The notes beneath the pieces are model-generated. The model saw only the letters and a program-made list of their open reading frames with translations. It was not told the DNA's origin and did not search any database. From contig NZ_RAVZ01000051.1 of the NCBI RefSeq assembly GCF_003611635.1, positions 1 to 37,696 on the forward strand: a stretch of 37,696 nt of DNA. Direction: 5' to 3'. This document shows, piece after piece, positions 20,184 to 28,632 of this stretch. Made by a program: the position numbers and the translations under genes. The number at the start of each line of letters is the position of its first letter. The stretch's first letter is position 1. Source of the stretch: Corallococcus terminator (GTDB lineage Bacteria; Myxococcota; Myxococcia; Myxococcales; Myxococcaceae).

Positions 20184-21489
20184 GCGGCTTGCGGCGCGCG
20201 GTCGCCTTCTTCGCCAGGGCCTTCTTCGGAGATTTCCGGTCGGCCGCGAGGGCTGGGAAGGTGAGCGTGAACACCGCGCCTCCCTGCTTCCGGTTGGCGC
20301 CGGTGAGCGTGCCGCCCGCGCGCGTCACCACGCCGTGGGCCATGGACAGGCCCAGGCCGGTGCCGTCGTTGCCCTTGGTGGTGAAGAAGGACTGGAAGAG
20401 GTGGGGCAGGTGCTCCGGCGCGATGCCGGTGCCCTCGTCCTCCACCGTGAGCCGCACCGTCGCGCCCTTGTGGACGGCCCGCACGTGGATGGTGCCGCCC
20501 CGGGACATGGCGTCGCGGGCGTTGATGAGCAGGTTGATGAGGACGTACCTCAGCTCCATCGCCGAACCCGCGACGAGCGGCAGTCGCGGAGGCATCACCA
20601 CGTTCAGGCGCAGGAAGTGGCCCCGCGGCAGGGGGCGATGCTCGATGCCGCCCCGGGCGATGTCCACCGCGTCCCGGACCACCTCGGTGAGCTGGACGCG
20701 CTCCCGGAAGGCCCTGGCCTTCTGGCGCGTGAAGTCCTGGAGCCGGCTCACGCGCGCATCCGCGTCGGACACGATGCGCGCCAGGGCTTCCAGGTGCGGC
20801 TGGTGCTGGCCCGTGGGGGCCACGTCGTGCTGGAGCATCTCCAGCCGCATCCGCATGGCGTTGAGCGTGTTGCGCAGGTCGTGCGCCATGCCCGCCGACA
20901 GCTCCCCCAGGGCGCGGATCTGCGCGCGCTCCAACATGGTGGCGCGCGCGCAGAGCAACTCCTCCTCGTCGCGCGCCTGCTCGGTGATGTCGCGCGCGAG
21001 CACCAGCACGTGACCTTCCAGGGGCCCGGCGACGCGCTCCGAGCGCACCTCCAGCACCTGGGGATGCGCTTCGTGGGTCTGGCGGTAGCGCGCGACGCGC
21101 GACCCCACCGACTCCAGAGCCAGCGCCGCATCCCTCTCCACCTGGGCCATCTCCCGCAGTGAAGCATGCGTCGGCGCGGCACCCGTCCGCACGCCGAGGC
21201 CGGGCTCGGCCATGCGTTGCCAGGGACCCCGGTTCCTGTTGAGCGCATGCCAGCGCGAGTTGGCCAGCACCACGCTGCCCGCGCTCAGCACCGCCAGCGC
21301 GCTGTCGCTCGTCTCCAGTGCCCAACTGGACAGCCGGAAGGTGCTGACGTGCAGCGTGGTGCGCTCCTCCAGCCTGCGCACCAACTGTTCGTGCTTGGCC
21401 AGCAGCTCGCGGTATTTTCGCAGCAGGCCCGGCTTCTCCTCTGGCGCGGGGACGGGGTGGGGCGGCGGAGGCGAGCGCCGCGCGCTCAT
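20179..21489 (-). CDS. Soluble PAS-like histidine kinase coupled to cheR
   Basis: A 436-residue histidine kinase without membrane segments. Residues 1-45 are Pro-rich then helical; about 50-170 is a PAS-like sensor ending in VLARDITEQARDEEE; the DHp helix has H203 in SAGMAHDLRNTLN; the HATPase domain (about 290-415) has N-box VLINLLINARDAM, G1 DEGTGIAP and G2 GTGLGLSMAHGV. It ends in a Lys/Arg-rich tail. Its class resembles NtrB-type kinases that feed soluble receivers. The ATG overlaps the cheR stop in an ATGA, so the two genes are translationally coupled. Likely partners are the receivers at 18376 or 23607. A kinase taking the place of CheA in this block is inference. Confidence 0.92.
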   Translation of the reverse strand: MSARRSPPPPHPVPAPEEKPGLLRKYRELLAKHEQLVRRLEERTTLHVSTFRLSSWALETSDSALAVLSAGSVVLANSRWHALNRNRGPWQRMAEPGLGVRTGAAPTHASLREMAQVERDAALALESVGSRVARYRQTHEAHPQVLEVRSERVAGPLEGHVLVLARDITEQARDEEELLCARATMLERAQIRALGELSAGMAHDLRNTLNAMRMRLEMLQHDVAPTGQHQPHLEALARIVSDADARVSRLQDFTRQKARAFRERVQLTEVVRDAVDIARGGIEHRPLPRGHFLRLNVVMPPRLPLVAGSAMELRYVLINLLINARDAMSRGGTIHVRAVHKGATVRLTVEDEGTGIAPEHLPHLFQSFFTTKGNDGTGLGLSMAHGVVTRAGGTLTGANRKQGGAVFTLTFPALAADRKSPKKALAKKATARRKPR

Positions 21490-23420
21490 GCCTTCCTCTT
21501 CGTCTTGAGGAGGCGGTTCTCCTCCAGCAGCGCAGCCGCCCGGGTGGTGTCCTCGAAGAGCACGATGGAGCCCAGCACGTTCGTCTCCGTGACGAGCGGG
21601 GTCGCGACCAGGGTGGCGCTGCCCGTGCCCCCGTGCGGAAGCTGGTAGGGCACCCCTTCCAGGCGCAGCGAGCGGTTCTCCTGGAGGTGTCGGCGCAGCT
21701 TCTGGATGAGGGGGCGCTTGAGGGCGGGCACGTGCAGGGACCACAGCTTCTGGCCCACCGCCTCGCGCTCGGTGACGCCCAGGAGGCGTTCGGCGGCCAG
21801 GTTCCAGGTGGTGATGCGGCCGTCGCCCTCCAGCACCAGCACCGCGGCGGAGAGCGTGCGGATGATGGTGCGCTGGGTGAAGGCCAGCGAATCCATCTCC
21901 AGCGTGCGGTGCGCCAGCTCGCGGTTGGTGGCGTCCAGCTCCGCGTTGGCGGACTGGAGCTCCTCGTTCGTCGTCTCCAGCTCCTCGTTGGTGGACTGGA
22001 GCTCCTCGTTCGTCGTCTGCAGCTCCTCGTTGGCGGACTGGAGCTCCTCGTTCGTCGTCTCCAGTTCCTCGTTGGAGGCCCGCAGCTCCTCGTTGGAGGA
22101 CTGCATCCGCAGGTTGATGGACTGCAATTCCTCCTGCACCGACTGCAGCGCCTGCTCCACCCCCCGGGCAGTGGTCACGTCGTGGGTGACGTACAGCAGG
22201 CCCTGTCGCGCGCCCGTGCGGTCGCGCAGGGGGACCACCTGCGTGCGCACGGTGATGGAGTCGCCGCCAGCGTTCTCCAGCAGGCCGTCGGAGAACTCGC
22301 GCTCGGTGCGGCCGTTGCGCACCCGTCCGGTCTGTTCGATGAGCAGGTCGCCGATGAGCCCGCTCAGACCCAGCGCGGACAGCTTCTTGCCCAGCACGTC
22401 GCCTTCGTTGCGGTTCCACATCCGCGCCGCCGCGCGGTTCCAGAACGTCACCGTGCCGTCGTTGTCGGTGGTGATGGTGGGGCAGGGCTGGGAGTCCAGC
22501 AGGTCGCGCAGGAGGGAGCGCTCGGGTTCGATGGCCGCCGCGATGAGGCGGGGCGGAAGGGTGGGCTCCGGTGGCAGCCGGTCTTGCGTCGTGGTGACCA
22601 CCTCCACGTGGGCGTCCTTGCGGTAGATGCGCCGCGCCAGGTCCACGGGCCGGAAGATGCGGGCCGCGAAGGGGATGAGCTCCGAGCGGCCCAGCATCAG
22701 CAGGCCGTTGCGCCGGAGGGCGAACTGGAAGCGCGCCAGCACCCGCTTCTGCAGATCCGAGTCCAGGTAGATGAAGACGTTGCGGCACAGGATGAGGTCG
22801 ATGCGCGACACGGGCGCGTCCGACACCAGGTTGTTCACCCCGAACACCACCGCGCGGCGGATCTCCTTGCGCACCGTGAAGGTGTTGCCGGTGCGCACGA
22901 ACCAGCGCGCCAGCCGCTCCTTGGAGACGTTCTCCAACTGCGCCGGCGTGTAGATGCCCCGGCGGGCCCCGGCGATGGCGTCCTCGTCCACGTCCGTGCC
23001 GAACACCTTCAGCTCCGGGCCGGGGTGGCCCGGCCCCAGGGCCTCCGCCGCGGCGATGGCGAGCGAATACGCCTCCTCGCCGGTGGCGCAGCCCGCGCTC
23101 CAGATGCGCAGCTCCTTGTCCGGGCGCTGGCGGATGAGCTCCGCCAGGGACTCCTCCAGCGTCTGCCACACCTCGCGGTCGCGAAAGAAGGTGGTCAGCT
23201 TGATGAGCATGGAGGAGACGAGCGTGCTGACCTCCGCGGGCTCCCGCTCCAGCAGCGCCAGGTAGGCGGCGCGGGTGCGGCAGCGCGTGGCCTGCATCCG
23301 CCGCTCGATGCGGCGCTGCAACGTGGCGCGCTTGTAGTTGCGGAAGTCGAAGTTACGGACCTGCCTCACCTTCTCCAGGATGGCTTCGAGTTCACTGTCG
23401 CGAGGGGGGCGGGTCGCCAT
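21486..23420 (-). CDS. cheR: CheR methyltransferase with PAS domains and coiled coil
   Basis: A 644-residue fusion. Residues about 5-270 are a CheR S-adenosylmethionine-dependent glutamate methyltransferase: N-terminal helical part (RNYKRATLQRRIERRM), SAM site WSAGCATGEEAYSLAI, FGTDVDEDAI and the CRNVFIYLD segment. A PAS domain (about 315-430) follows, ending in YVTHDVTTARG; then a coiled coil built on nine NEEL-type heptads; then a second PAS-like domain (about 515-630). The fusion places methyl transfer under sensory control. In many bacteria the same parts are joined with CheB and a kinase in one polypeptide; here they are separate genes. There is no chemoreceptor gene in the window, so the methylation target is unknown. 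It starts with ATG at 23420 and is divergent from the NarL-type gene. Confidence 0.93.
   Translation of the reverse strand: MATRPPRDSELEAILEKVRQVRNFDFRNYKRATLQRRIERRMQATRCRTRAAYLALLEREPAEVSTLVSSMLIKLTTFFRDREVWQTLEESLAELIRQRPDKELRIWSAGCATGEEAYSLAIAAAEALGPGHPGPELKVFGTDVDEDAIAGARRGIYTPAQLENVSKERLARWFVRTGNTFTVRKEIRRAVVFGVNNLVSDAPVSRIDLILCRNVFIYLDSDLQKRVLARFQFALRRNGLLMLGRSELIPFAARIFRPVDLARRIYRKDAHVEVVTTTQDRLPPEPTLPPRLIAAAIEPERSLLRDLLDSQPCPTITTDNDGTVTFWNRAAARMWNRNEGDVLGKKLSALGLSGLIGDLLIEQTGRVRNGRTEREFSDGLLENAGGDSITVRTQVVPLRDRTGARQGLLYVTHDVTTARGVEQALQSVQEELQSINLRMQSSNEELRASNEELETTNEELQSANEELQTTNEELQSTNEELETTNEELQSANAELDATNRELAHRTLEMDSLAFTQRTIIRTLSAAVLVLEGDGRITTWNLAAERLLGVTEREAVGQKLWSLHVPALKRPLIQKLRRHLQENRSLRLEGVPYQLPHGGTGSATLVATPLVTETNVLGSIVLFEDTTRAAALLEENRLLKTKRKA
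21912..22100 (-). repeat. 21-bp tandem repeat encoding heptad coiled coil
   Basis: Nine consecutive 21-bp units inside cheR encode heptads of the form xxNEELx (the last two read NAEL and NREL). The DNA units are also nearly identical, for example CTCCTCGTT recurs in seven of the nine. Period and frame match a coiled-coil signalling helix between two PAS domains. Near-identical DNA makes copy number changes by slippage plausible. Confidence 0.9.
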
Positions 23421-24387: not shown

Positions 24388-25188
24388 TCAGGGCGTCGGC
24401 GCGGGGTCCCCTTCCAGTTCGTACCGGGGCGCTCCCAGGTGCTGGAGGAACCATTCCCCGGCGAGCTCGGCCACCCGTTCCAGCTCCGCGTCCTCCTGGA
24501 AGTGGTGGGTCGCGCCCGGGATGATCTCCATGTGCTTGGGCGCCTGGAGGTCGGCGTAGGCCCGGCGGTTGATGTCCAGGCCCAGCGCGTCCGCGCCGCC
24601 CACGAGCAGCAGCGTGGGAGCCCGCACCTTGGGGAGCACCGCGCCGGCCAGGTCGGGCCGGCCGCCCCGGGAGACGACGGCGTCCACCAGCTCCGGACGG
24701 TTGGCCGCGGCGGACAGCGCCGCGCCCGCGCCGGTGTGCGAGCCGAAGTAGCCCACGCGCAGGCCGGTGGTGTGGGGTTCGCGTTGCAGCCACCGCGCCG
24801 CGCCCGCCATGCGCAGGCCCAGCAGGCCCATGTTGAAGCGAAGCTGCCGCGTGCGGCGCTCTTCCATCTCCTCGCTGGTGAGCAGGTCCAACAGCAAGGT
24901 GCCCAGTCCCATCGCCTGGAACAGGCGAGAGGTCTGCGCGAGCCGGGGACTCTGGCGGCTGCTGTCGCTGCCTCGCGCCAGCACCACCACGCCCCGCGCG
25001 CCCGCGGGCACCGCCAACCGCCCTCGGAGGAGGACGGCGTCATCCACCGGCACCATCACCTCGCGCTCCAGGTGCGTGCGCGCCGCCGGTGTTCCTCCAC
25101 GCGTCGCGGGGGCTTCCCGCGGCTGCTCCGACGACCCGTGGTCCTGCCGTGCTGCCCTCAACCCCGTTCGTGACCGGGGACCTGTCAT
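24388..25188 (-). CDS. Dienelactone-hydrolase-like protein with altered nucleophile
   Basis: A 266-residue alpha/beta-hydrolase-fold protein of the dienelactone hydrolase type. An unstructured N-terminus (about 1-42) precedes the fold: MVPVDDAVLLRGRLAVP, GVVVLARGSDSSRQSP (oxyanion region), the LGTLLLDLLT strand, then the nucleophile elbow. The elbow reads YFGSHTGAGAAL: the centre of the G-x-N-x-G turn is H151 where family members have Ser or Cys, and the nearest Ser (S150) is one position early. The acid D200 in LLVGGADALG and base H228/H229 in IPGATHHFQ are in place. It may be inactive as a hydrolase or use a shifted residue. The ATG at 25188 has GGAGGAG five bases upstream. It is separated from the operon upstream by a terminator. 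Confidence 0.85.
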   Translation of the reverse strand: MTGPRSRTGLRAARQDHGSSEQPREAPATRGGTPAARTHLEREVMVPVDDAVLLRGRLAVPAGARGVVVLARGSDSSRQSPRLAQTSRLFQAMGLGTLLLDLLTSEEMEERRTRQLRFNMGLLGLRMAGAARWLQREPHTTGLRVGYFGSHTGAGAALSAAANRPELVDAVVSRGGRPDLAGAVLPKVRAPTLLLVGGADALGLDINRRAYADLQAPKHMEIIPGATHHFQEDAELERVAELAGEWFLQHLGAPRYELEGDPAPTP

Positions 25189-25323
25189 ACAGGCTCCTCC
25201 CGTCTGCGTTTGGCTGACCTGCGACCGAGGGTAAGTTGAGCACCCCCCCAGCCGCTGTGACCTGTCGGAAGGTCCGGGCTGTCCGGCGTCCGACACCGCA
25301 TTGTAGGGAGGGAGGAGGCCCGA

Positions 25324-25350
25324 GGGAAACGACCCACCCTGGAGGGTGGG
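25324..25350 (-). terminator. Terminator of the tryptophan-derived operon
   Basis: On the minus strand CCCACCC (25344-25350) pairs with GGGTGGG (25333-25339) around a TCCA loop and is followed by TCGTTTCCC (25324-25332). It lies 15 bp past the O-methyltransferase stop and separates that operon from the hydrolase gene. Confidence 0.65.
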
Positions 25351-25364
25351 ACCCCTGTCGGATT

Positions 25365-26438
25365 TCAGGGCTTCGTGGCCACCACGAGCTCGAAGGGGCC
25401 GGGCAGCACGTGCGCGTCCCGGAAGCCCGCGGTGGTGAGCGCGTCCAGGTAGAACTCCACCTCGCGCAGCCGGCTGGAGCACGCGTCCACGCCGATGAGG
25501 AAGTAGGACCAGAAGAACTGCGCCGCCAGTCGCTCCGGCGTGCGGAACTCCTCGCAGATGAGCACCCGTCCGCCCGAAGGCAGCGCGGCGAAGGCGGCCT
25601 GCATCAACTGGCGCGCCACCTCCGCGGGCCAGTCGTGCAGCACGCGCACGAACGACAGCGCGTCGTAGCCCTGGGGAAGCGCCTCGCGCAGGAAGTCCCC
25701 GCCCACGAAGCCCAGCCGCTTTGGCGTCAGGCCCGCACGCTCGCGCGTGCGGGTGACGAGCGCCTCGGTGGCAGGCAGGTTGTAGACGTCCACGTCCAGC
25801 TTCGCGTGTTCGCGCAGCAGGTGCTCCGCGAGCGTCCCGTCCCCGCCGCCCACGTCGAGCAGCCGGGCCCCGGAAGGCCACAGCGCGCCCGCGTGCGCGC
25901 GGAACGTCTCCAGGATGGGGCCCAGGCCCGCGGCCATGCTCGCCTCGAAGCCCTCCACCTGTTCGGGCGTGCGCGGAGGCCAGTCGAAGGAGGCGGCGGA
26001 CATGGAGTGCTGGCCGCGCAGCACCTCTGGCAGCCGGCCATGCAGCGCCTTCCAGTCGTACTTCTCCCGGTCGCGCTCCAGCGCGCGCGGCCCCAGCACC
26101 GCCTCCGCCGCCGCGCGCAGGCCCTGCACGCCCCGGTAGCGCGTGTCCGCCAGCGCGTCGGAGGGCTGCTCGCGCTGCACGAGCCCCAGGCTCTCCAGGC
26201 AGTCGAGGAACTTGTACAGCCGCTGCGGCACGAAGCCGTGGCGCGTGGACAACTCCCCCAGCGTCACCGGCCCGGGCTCCAGCGCGTCCAGCAGTCCCAG
26301 CCCGAGCGCCGTCTCCACCACGTCCAGCGCGCGAGCGCCGTTGAACAGCAGGTGCAGCAGGGCGCGCGGTGATGCGGCCTCACGCGGAGGCGATGCGGGT
26401 GCCGGAGCGACGGGCGGAGCAGACAGTGCCGCGCTCAT
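25365..26438 (-). CDS. SAM-dependent O-methyltransferase, family 2 type
   Basis: A 357-residue methyltransferase of the plant-COMT/acetylserotonin O-methyltransferase type. An Ala/Pro-rich start (1-25) is followed by a winged-helix dimerisation domain (about 28-110; LGLLDALEPGPVTLGEL, RLYKFLDCLESLGLV) and a Rossmann SAM domain (about 170-357). SAM motif I is LLDVGGGDGTLAEHLL (193-208). H268 in VRVLHDWP aligns with the catalytic base of family members. Such enzymes methylate phenolic hydroxyls, sometimes amines, of small aromatics. The start codon overlaps the preceding gene in an ATGA, so it is the last gene of the TDO-like/kynureninase-like operon. The likely acceptor is the aromatic product of those two enzymes, such as an anthranilate-type or quinoline-type compound; this is inference. 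Confidence 0.9.
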   Translation of the reverse strand: MSAALSAPPVAPAPASPPREAASPRALLHLLFNGARALDVVETALGLGLLDALEPGPVTLGELSTRHGFVPQRLYKFLDCLESLGLVQREQPSDALADTRYRGVQGLRAAAEAVLGPRALERDREKYDWKALHGRLPEVLRGQHSMSAASFDWPPRTPEQVEGFEASMAAGLGPILETFRAHAGALWPSGARLLDVGGGDGTLAEHLLREHAKLDVDVYNLPATEALVTRTRERAGLTPKRLGFVGGDFLREALPQGYDALSFVRVLHDWPAEVARQLMQAAFAALPSGGRVLICEEFRTPERLAAQFFWSYFLIGVDACSSRLREVEFYLDALTTAGFRDAHVLPGPFELVVATKP

Positions 26439-27580
26439 GCGGCCTCCTTGCGCTGCTCTTCGATGAGCGCGTCCATGAAGCCATCCACCTCTTCCGGCGT
26501 GTTGTAGAAGTGCGGCGCCGCGCGCAGGAAGCCCCGGTGGCTGCAGATGAAGCCGCGCGCCACCAGCCGCTGCATCACGCTCACGTCGCCAGGGAAGCTC
26601 AGCGCCACGATGCCGCCGCGCTGGTGCGGCTCGCGCGGTGTCACCACGCGCAGGCCCGCTTCATCCGCGCGCGCCATCAGCCGCGACGTGAGCTTCAGCG
26701 AATGCTCGCGCACCGCCGTGATGCCCACGCCCTTCAAGAGGTCCAGCCCCGGCCGCGACAGCAGCACCATCAGCGGCGCGGGCGTGCCGCCCATCATCCG
26801 CCGCGCATCCGGTGCCCAGGCCTCCGCCGACTGGAAGGCCAGCGGCGACGCCCCGGCAAGCCACCCGGTGTCCGCGGGCCGCAGCGTGGGCAGCAGCTCC
26901 GGACGCACGTACATGAACGCGTACTCGGAGCCGCCCAGCCACTTGTGCGCGCCGCCCATGAGGAAGTCCACGTCCAGCGCGCGCACGTCCACCGGCACCG
27001 TGCCCACCGTCTGGTACGCATCCGTGGCGATGAGCGCCCCGGCCGCGTGCGCCGCCTTCGCCACGCGCGCGACATCCAGCAGCGCGCCGGTGGAGAACGC
27101 GGCGTGCGACACGCAGACCAGCCGCGTGCGCTCGTCGATGGCCGCCTCCAGCGCCGCCTCATCCACGCGGCCGTCGCGCGACGGCACCACCACCAGCTCC
27201 GCCCCATAGCGCGCGAAGCCCTTCCAGATGAAGGGCACCGTGGGGAACTCCAGGTCGGTGACGATGACGCGGCGGCGCTCGCCGCTGAAGTCCAGGCAGG
27301 TGCCCAGGCGCGACAGGTGCGCGCTCAGGTTCACGTCCAACGCCACGGACGCGGGCGGAGCGCCGATGAGGCCCGCCACCGCATCCGCGTAGCCCTGCAT
27401 CTGGGAAAGCCATCCATCCCAGACGGCGTCGCGCCACGTGCGCATCGTGGTCCAGTACTGCGCGAGCACTCCCTCCACGGCCCGGGGCATCGCCCCGGTG
27501 GAGTTGCTGTTGAGGTACGTGCAGGTCTCAAGCAGGGGATACTCCGCGCGCAGGGCCCCCGGGAGTACCCCCTCGATCAC
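26435..27580 (-). CDS. Kynureninase-like PLP enzyme (class V aminotransferase fold)
   Basis: A 381-residue PLP-dependent enzyme. Fold-type I marks: TYLNSNSTGAMP at the N-terminus, VIVTDLEFPTVPF near 106-118, CVSHAAFSTGALLD near 156-169, D187 in IATDAYQTVG binding the pyridine nitrogen and the Schiff-base Lys K213 in MGGAHKWLGG. The DAYQTVGTVPVDV and TGWLAGASPLAF segments are close to kynureninases, which split kynurenine into anthranilate and alanine; a cysteine-desulfurase or epimerase relative is the alternative. The location directly after a TDO-superfamily gene supports kynureninase-type activity. The GTG at 27580 overlaps the upstream stop as GTGA, with GAGGAG six bases before it. No formamidase gene for the intermediate step is in the window. 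Confidence 0.87.
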   Translation of the reverse strand: MIEGVLPGALRAEYPLLETCTYLNSNSTGAMPRAVEGVLAQYWTTMRTWRDAVWDGWLSQMQGYADAVAGLIGAPPASVALDVNLSAHLSRLGTCLDFSGERRRVIVTDLEFPTVPFIWKGFARYGAELVVVPSRDGRVDEAALEAAIDERTRLVCVSHAAFSTGALLDVARVAKAAHAAGALIATDAYQTVGTVPVDVRALDVDFLMGGAHKWLGGSEYAFMYVRPELLPTLRPADTGWLAGASPLAFQSAEAWAPDARRMMGGTPAPLMVLLSRPGLDLLKGVGITAVREHSLKLTSRLMARADEAGLRVVTPREPHQRGGIVALSFPGDVSVMQRLVARGFICSHRGFLRAAPHFYNTPEEVDGFMDALIEEQRKEAA

Positions 27581-28632
27581 GTCTGGCTCCTCAGCTCGTG
27601 GGGATGGGGATACGCCGCCGGCGCGCCGTGGGCGTGCATCGCGGTCGGTGCGGCGTGGGCGTGCATCGCGGCCGGCGCGGCATGGGCGTGCATCGCGGCC
27701 GGCGCGGCGTGGGCGTGCATCGCGGCCGCCGCGGCGTGGGCGTGCATCGCGGCCGCCGCGTCGTGGGCGTGCATCGCGGTCGGCATGGTGTGGCCGTGCA
27801 TCATCGGGCACCCGCCCCCGCGAGGCGCCGCGTGCGCGTCCGTCCCTCGCGACGCACCCGTCGCGTAGCCGCCCTCGCGCTTCCAGCCGTTGGTCATCTC
27901 CACGCGCACGTCCCACAGCGCGCGGAACAGCGGCAGGGTCATGCGCCCGGCCAGCACCTGCGTGGGCAGGCCATCCAGCGCCTTCACCGAACGGTCCACG
28001 CCGATGGTGCGGCGCACCAACTGGAAGTGCGCGAACAGCCAGCCCTGGAAGGCCTCATCCATGCTGACCAGGTTCTCACAGACGTGCTTCAGATCCTCGT
28101 GCCCCCCGGCCGTGTAGATCTGCATCAGCGTCACACCCCGGCGCTCCAGCATGCGCTCCAGGGAGGACTCCAGTCCCGTGGCCGCCAGCCGGAACGTGTT
28201 GTAGCCCGGCGACTCCTGCCCGCTGCCGTTGCCCAGGCTGCGGCGGATGACCTGGTACGCCTCCGGCGTCATCGTCTCCAGGATGGCCATCTCGGAGCTG
28301 ATGCACTGGAGGATGCGCTGCACCCGCGCCAGCCGAGCAACCACGGCCCACAGGGCGTCCCGGTCCAGCTCCGCCACCACTTCCACGATCTCCCGCGACG
28401 CCAGCTTCAGGTACAGCTCCTGGGACTGGTGGACGATCTGGAACATCAGCTCGTCGTGCGACACGCGCTCCGCTTCCGCGGACTGCAGGCCCAGCAGCGT
28501 CCCCGTGTGCAGGTAACGCTCGTAGTCCAGCTCTCCCTTGCCCACCCACTTCTTCAGCATCGGGTTGAAGAGCGGCTGAGTCAGCTCGTGCTTCAGTTTT
28601 TCCGCGTGGCTGTAATCAGTGGACATGAACAT
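27577..28632 (-). CDS. Divergent tryptophan 2,3-dioxygenase-superfamily enzyme, His-rich tail
   Basis: A 351-residue protein. Residues 1-250 are a helical heme-enzyme core of the tryptophan 2,3-dioxygenase family: YERYLHTGTLLGLQ (37-50), distal pocket F64 and H68 in FQIVHQSQELYLK, substrate-carboxylate pair Y126/R130 in ETMTPEAYQVIR, LGNGSGQES (133-141) and the proximal heme ligand H202 in AHFQLVRRTIG. The loop that normally reads GTGGSSG after this helix is missing; GVDRSVKALDGLP stands there, so the usual Thr binding the substrate amino group is absent. Residues 250-351 form an extra low-complexity tail with seven MHxH-type 9-residue repeats. Canonical enzymes convert tryptophan to N-formylkynurenine; relatives such as MarE do other oxidations. 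The ATG at 28632 follows GGAGG; 28626 is an alternative. First gene of a coupled operon. Confidence 0.9.
   Translation of the reverse strand: MFMSTDYSHAEKLKHELTQPLFNPMLKKWVGKGELDYERYLHTGTLLGLQSAEAERVSHDELMFQIVHQSQELYLKLASREIVEVVAELDRDALWAVVARLARVQRILQCISSEMAILETMTPEAYQVIRRSLGNGSGQESPGYNTFRLAATGLESSLERMLERRGVTLMQIYTAGGHEDLKHVCENLVSMDEAFQGWLFAHFQLVRRTIGVDRSVKALDGLPTQVLAGRMTLPLFRALWDVRVEMTNGWKREGGYATGASRGTDAHAAPRGGGCPMMHGHTMPTAMHAHDAAAAMHAHAAAAAMHAHAAPAAMHAHAAPAAMHAHAAPTAMHAHGAPAAYPHPHELRSQT
27613..27801 (-). repeat. 27-bp tandem repeat encoding MHAHxAxxA units
   Basis: Seven exact-period 27-bp units, with GTGCAT (plus strand) at 27634, 27661, 27688, 27715, 27742, 27769 and 27796, encode residues 278-340 of the TDO-like protein. 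In order the units are MHGHTMPTA, MHAHDAAAA, MHAHAAAAA, MHAHAAPAA twice, MHAHAAPTA and MHAHGAPAA. Each gives a Met and two His spaced HxH. Near-identical DNA suggests recent expansion by slippage. Confidence 0.95.

Follow-up and report, generated by a model that had tools for sequence, protein, structure and literature searches.

What a dense run of histidines and methionines is doing at the end of a heme enzyme is the question raised by one gene of the window, the whole 37,696-nucleotide stretch of Corallococcus terminator DNA analysed here (contig NZ_RAVZ01000051.1). The gene encodes a 351-residue heme-dependent aromatic oxygenase (HDAO) predicted to consist of a folded core followed by a disordered tail, and the tail carries a tandem repeat (Table 1).

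Table 1. Features of the HDAO locus, in coordinates of the window
Feature	Position	Strand	Evidence
TDO/MarE-type heme-dependent aromatic oxygenase (HDAO) gene	27577..28632	minus	ORF, 351 aa; PF03301; AF2 core matches
HDAO folded core, residues 1-253	27874..28632	minus	invariant columns, canonical-TDO alignment, pLDDT
GGGCPM kernel, residues 272-277	27802..27819	minus	Cys-Pro motif; in all Myxococcaceae rows, very similar to MarE end
Seven 27-bp units, MHGHTMPTA + 6 x MHAHxAxxA	27613..27801	minus	TRF, translation
C-terminus YPHPHELRSQT-stop	27577..27612	minus	sequence; kept in Corallococcus rows
Kynureninase-like / class-V PLP enzyme, cassette gene 2	26435..27580	minus	PF00266 E 2e-35, KYNU_C E 6e-12
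Methyltransf_2-type methyltransferase, cassette gene 3	25365..26438	minus	PF00891 E 4e-18; conserved neighbour
Alpha/beta-hydrolase, after cassette in Corallococcus	24391-25128		

We checked the identity of the core, which an earlier note on this DNA had labelled a heme oxygenase and likened to TDO. The core scored 71.7 bits against Pfam PF03301 (cut-off 34.9) and only 111.6 bits against the NCBIfam TDO equivalog TIGR03036, well under the cut-off of 390.7. In the AlphaFold model, pLDDT was mostly 80-98 up to about residue 250, and residues 267-351 were almost entirely below 50. The best solved fold for the modelled core was MarE (9ca3; Z 23.8, rmsd 2.3 over 233 residues), with XcTDO second (2nw8; Z 20.7), so that the core has the all-helical TDO-type fold of the HDAO superfamily (TDO/IDO/MarE). 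Distal His68, proximal His202 and substrate-binding Tyr37 and Tyr40 were invariant in both of our alignments (A1 and A2), as checked over 23 relatives, and Arg131 was invariant in A1 only. His202 and His68 align with the heme ligand and distal His of XcTDO, as expected of a superfamily member. The resemblance to TDO (XcTDO, 2NW7/2NW8) thus covers the fold, both heme-pocket histidines and the substrate-binding Arg and Tyr positions, but the GTGGS substrate loop is absent, with VKALDGLPT in its place, and a gap of about 25 residues marks the missing extra-helix insert. MarE also lacks the extra helices of TDO, but its active-site loops DATG and SLGGR are not present in the window protein, which has GNGSG and KALDG instead. 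Since the TDO insert and GTGGS loop are absent, and the MarE SLGGR loop too, the core represents a separate divergent HDAO subfamily, distinct from TDO and MarE strictly defined. The heme oxygenase label is thus dropped, as is equivalence with canonical TDO. The same genome also encodes a second TDO paralogue, of canonical type and without a tail (G000:C162, L002).

In the tail, TRF reported an array at 27613-27802 with a period of 27 bp, 7.0 copies, 89% matches and no indels. Minus-strand translation gives the seven 9-residue units described by the earlier note, each with one Met and one HxH pair (14 unit His in total): MHGHTMPTA as unit 1, then MHAHDAAAA, MHAHAAAAA, MHAHAAPAA (twice), MHAHAAPTA and MHAHGAPAA as units 2-7. 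The flanks GGGCPMMHGH and YPHPHE were also read correctly by that note, except that the first is not separate from the array, its MHGH belonging to unit 1; the array proper lies between GGGCPM and YPHPHELRSQT. Its description of the units as near-identical holds best for the MHAH half of units 2-7, where 24 codons carry one synonymous change; all amino-acid changes in these units are confined to the other five codons. With His making up 17% of the last 98 residues, the protein has a His-dense terminal extension.

Such an array is commoner than chance would predict: the 10.35-Mb genome contains six occurrences of three HxH pairs at 27-bp spacing, and five of the six are overlapping readings of the array itself; the reversed pattern occurs twice. 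A search of the same genome returned no second tail-like locus (next best match E = 0.097). Tail searches of this and related genomes matched only the HDAO gene, which rules out a general genomic family of His/Ala repeats. Nor is GGGCPM a tag common to the heme proteins of this genome, as one of the other three pattern matches was a GMC oxidoreductase-like motif and the remaining two were unrelated ORFs. One further pattern, GGNTGYCCNATGNNNNNNCAY, was set aside as incapable of matching the window itself. Elsewhere in the window, a 21/42/84-bp tandem repeat lies at 21924-22133, inside a minus-strand gene at 21486-23420.

The HDAO gene is the first of a conserved three-gene cassette comprising HDAO, a kynureninase-like enzyme and a methyltransferase. 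Its TGA stop overlaps the GTG start of the kynureninase-like gene (GTGA), the end of which overlaps the Methyltransf_2-type methyltransferase gene. The kynureninase-like product scored 99.5 bits against the kynureninase equivalog, under the cut-off of that model. The three genes occur together in Nocardia, Kribbella, Micromonospora, Jiangella, Streptomyces, Sorangium, Nannocystis and Corallococcus, and the genes flanking them differ between Actinobacteria and Myxococcota (24391-28632 in the window; L055, L057, L060, L050, L058). In Myxococcus and Pyxidicoccus (L041-L049, L051, L054) the kynureninase-like gene is absent from its place in the cassette, and tails there are short. Most Myxococcaceae loci also conserve two regulatory genes, for a response regulator and a large hybrid histidine kinase, which lie upstream on the strand of the cassette. 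One locus, L043 (BNCN01000008.1), is labelled 'Comamonas sp. KCTC 72670' and has a Myxococcus-type HDAO with its neighbours in Myxococcus order; the record is probably mislabelled or contaminated. Among the papers available for searching, none dealt with the cassette in Corallococcus or Myxococcus, and its product seems undescribed. At the end of the HDAO gene, the GAGCTGAGGAGC codons (ELRS) resemble a Shine-Dalgarno sequence, and conservation of the terminal ELRSQ is better accounted for by a ribosome-binding site serving the overlapping kynureninase-like gene than by a functional peptide.

Next, the tail was compared across relatives and proved to be lineage-specific. Actinobacterial orthologues from the same cassette have tails of only 11-16 residues, with neither Cys-Pro nor a His array, which means that the core cassette does not require it. 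The earlier note had named close relatives lacking any tail, with identical function, as grounds for refutation. These orthologues go half way, since they share the cassette and have no His array, and a short tail is still present. Myxococcus and Pyxidicoccus tails are 29-43 residues long with one Cys-Pro kernel, and in the Myxococcus relatives, which keep this kernel, the entire tail contains 0-3 His. One Corallococcus group has tails of 39-42 residues reading GGCPMHAHAS... or close variants. The short tails of these sister species contain 3-4 His, and the array is therefore dispensable. One member of the group (G014) has exactly one MHAHAAPTA unit, and its nearest array-bearing relatives are C. 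praedator with five units and the window with seven. Unit number thus changes between relatives, in support of the earlier note, which had expected variation between strains, and stands at 7, 5 and 1 in different species (one genome per species); the window and C. praedator differ by whole units, seen as a 54-bp gap.

The longest tails fall into distinct kinds. In another Corallococcus clade they span 185-318 residues, of which 29-62 are His, and contain two or three Cys-Pro kernels, and the Citreicoccus tail has 357 residues and 41 His. In the clade of Hyalangium, G029 and G030, tails are also long but rich in Pro/Gly/Ser; they have 0-5% His and lack Cys-Pro, indicating that long disordered tails arise without selection for His. 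At L020 and L053 the enzyme carries, in this same position, long tails that differ in composition (SGYGSGSHG and SAHPPVN repeats, DPWSRPEPPTSRR motifs). In the tree, the Cys-Pro kernel was present in 27/27 Myxococcaceae rows. Tails of at least 80 residues that were His-dense (11-20% His) occurred only in rows with the kernel, and strongly His-enriched long tails only inside the kernel-bearing Myxococcaceae clade. The phylogenetically conserved part of the tail is thus the GGGCPM kernel, not the repeats, and the His repeats are a recent elaboration of it. The earlier note missed both the conservation of this kernel and its near match in MarE. His tails have apparently expanded up to three times, with differing unit sequences; the alternative is one early expansion with later contraction.

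Comparison of tail DNA bears on whether the tail is translated and constrained. Gaps were multiples of 3 in nine of ten aligned pairs, and the tenth had a compensated 1+5 gap. Third codon positions in the long tails changed about 1.5-4 times as often as positions 1 or 2; the window/C. praedator pair, with changes spread evenly over codon positions (6/6/6), is uninformative on this excess. Long tails gave a dN/dS of 0.15-0.34, from a protein-guided alignment that leans low. The proportion of aligned tail codons kept was 85% for His, 77% for Ala, 66% for Pro and 36% for Val, with 24% of His codons changed synonymously, all of these constraint figures being indications because the pairs are not independent and repeat alignments favour like-with-like pairing. 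Taken together, the in-frame indels, the third-position variation and the better conservation of His than of Ala or Pro indicate that the tail is translated and constrained. A chance or untranslated reading frame is ruled out by the first two.

The closest parallel to the kernel is in MarE, the HDAO of Streptomyces that forms the 2-oxindole of maremycin (9CA3/8VYY; PMC11904535) and also the closest fold. The primer used to make its C280S variant, GGC GGT AAC GGT AGC CCG GTT CAG CAC, encodes GGNG(S280)PVQH (PMC11904535), and wild-type MarE therefore ends GGNGCPVQH, the Cys being Cys280. This residue is reactive and forms a crosslink, and the MarE C-terminus adjoins the active site of the neighbouring subunit (PMC11904535). 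Both C280S and deletion of residues 270-284 leave MarE active, at a reduced level, and the heme loading of the expressed enzyme is at most 20% (PMC11904535). The window protein has the MarE element GGxGCPVxH in the close form RGGGCPMMH, with GGG directly before the Cys and Met for Val. A DNA pattern for GNGCPVxH-stop gave a single match over 393 Streptomyces genomes, a MarE-like enzyme ending RGGGNGCPVRH, and the BLASTP alignment of this homologue with the window protein runs through the tail (E 8e-13). Between the conserved LFxxLW Trp and the Cys, the spacing is 27 both in this homologue and in the long-tail Corallococcus clade, compared with 29 in M. xanthus and 35 in the window. MarE and the window protein have in common a C-terminal, Gly-rich Cys-Pro tail whose distance from the core is similar, but identity is about 22-23%, and MarE stops at residue 284, four after the Cys, without a His array. 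The kernel is probably the same kind of element as that of MarE, by descent or convergence, and the match may be convergent because the outgroups of the cassette itself have no Cys-Pro tail.

Transient heme binding is an established property of Cys-Pro and His-based motifs. The Cys-Pro of the window protein (residues 275-276, pLDDT below 50) lies in a predicted disordered stretch, as in Cys-Pro heme regulatory motifs, which it further resembles in being exposed, with His nearby and few charged residues. The likeness is one of sequence, and the Cys-Pro here differs in that the enzyme carrying it has a heme pocket of its own. A second likeness is to the tails of UreE, SlyD, HypB and Hpn, which are also low-complexity, His-dense terminal extensions that vary between relatives; the window protein differs in having a periodic Met-His-Ala-His unit on an HDAO core, not on a metallochaperone, and no metal genes in its cassette.

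The existence of the tail, its translation, its retention of His, its predicted disorder and the Cys-Pro element in common with MarE are established. Our preferred reading, put forward tentatively and at somewhat less than even confidence, is a MarE-type Cys-Pro tail amplified by repeats that would bind heme or a metal near the HDAO active site and might thereby affect activity. The earlier note is supported to the extent that a His/Met-rich tail, able in principle to bind metal or heme, sits on a TDO-fold heme enzyme. The HDAO would probably act on tryptophan or one of its derivatives, supplying an oxidised substrate to the kynureninase-like enzyme and the methyltransferase encoded downstream. 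The core of its flexible tail would be the MarE-type Gly-Gly-Cys-Pro-x-x-His element, placed near the active site of the neighbouring subunit if the tetramer is built like that of MarE. Corallococcus and Citreicoccus would have extended the sequence surrounding the element (CP-MHAH-AAP) into a disordered His/Met-rich ligand array, in the window by 27-bp tandem amplification. Its most likely role would be to capture heme, or else a transition metal, in the vicinity of the enzyme, which could aid heme loading or protect an enzyme that retains heme poorly. Against this reading stand the Actinobacterial orthologues from the same cassette, with neither Cys-Pro nor His tail, the His-poor long tails of the Hyalangium, G029 and G030 clade and the short tails of the sister Corallococcus species.

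Two close rivals have to be weighed against cofactor handling: metal binding without relevance to heme, and neutral slippage. In the first, which we consider rather unlikely, the array would store, sequester or sense a transition metal (Ni, Zn, Cu or Co) by binding it, much as the His-rich tails of nickel chaperones do. Ni, Zn and Cu are classically bound by HxH and Met, the 14 unit His would very probably bind metal in vitro, and Hpn, UreE and SlyD are precedents among His-rich nickel proteins. However, no metal-handling gene was found among the cassette genes and immediate neighbours examined, and the conserved part is a Cys-Pro kernel on a heme enzyme, not His, as seen in the Myxococcus relatives.

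The second rival is judged unlikely: slippage on a permissive disordered C-terminus, yielding an array without specific function that stays in frame because the gene end also supplies the following gene with its ribosome-binding site and overlapping start. The head-to-tail 27-bp units, the whole-unit difference from a close species, the relatives with very short tails, the double duty of the ELRS codons and the His-poor long tails of the Hyalangium clade are all consistent with it. It fits poorly with the third-position excess and the conservation of His above Ala or Pro within tails, with MHAH codons that are invariant but for one synonymous change, and with a genome in which no second array of this kind was found. 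A scaffold that keeps the cassette enzymes together, or a condensation driver, built of His/Ala/Pro or SGYGSGSH repeats and passing intermediates to the kynureninase-like partner, is very improbable: every tail of at least 80 residues found has the kynureninase-like gene directly downstream and Myxococcus rows without that neighbour have short tails, but short-tailed Corallococcus, Sorangium and Actinobacteria have it too, and the correlation follows phylogeny.

A broader form of the cofactor-handling reading, which we regard as doubtful, extends to a whole subset of HDAOs. These enzymes would carry a C-terminal Cys-Pro 'heme-handling' element reaching the active site of the neighbour, amplified in myxobacteria, perhaps several times, to His/Met arrays with as many as about 60 His, which would load or hold heme (or metal) in cis, as a built-in cofactor antenna tunable by repeat number.

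How mono- versus dioxygenation is steered is a subject of study in HDAOs, among them MarE, PrnB and TDO, and poor heme occupancy has hampered work on MarE. The presence of a conserved C-terminal Cys-Pro tail in both MarE and the myxobacterial subfamily, with a natural length series from 0 to about 60 His, offers a direct test of tail control over heme loading and activity. The same series makes it possible to ask if disordered repeats could serve as cofactor antennas.
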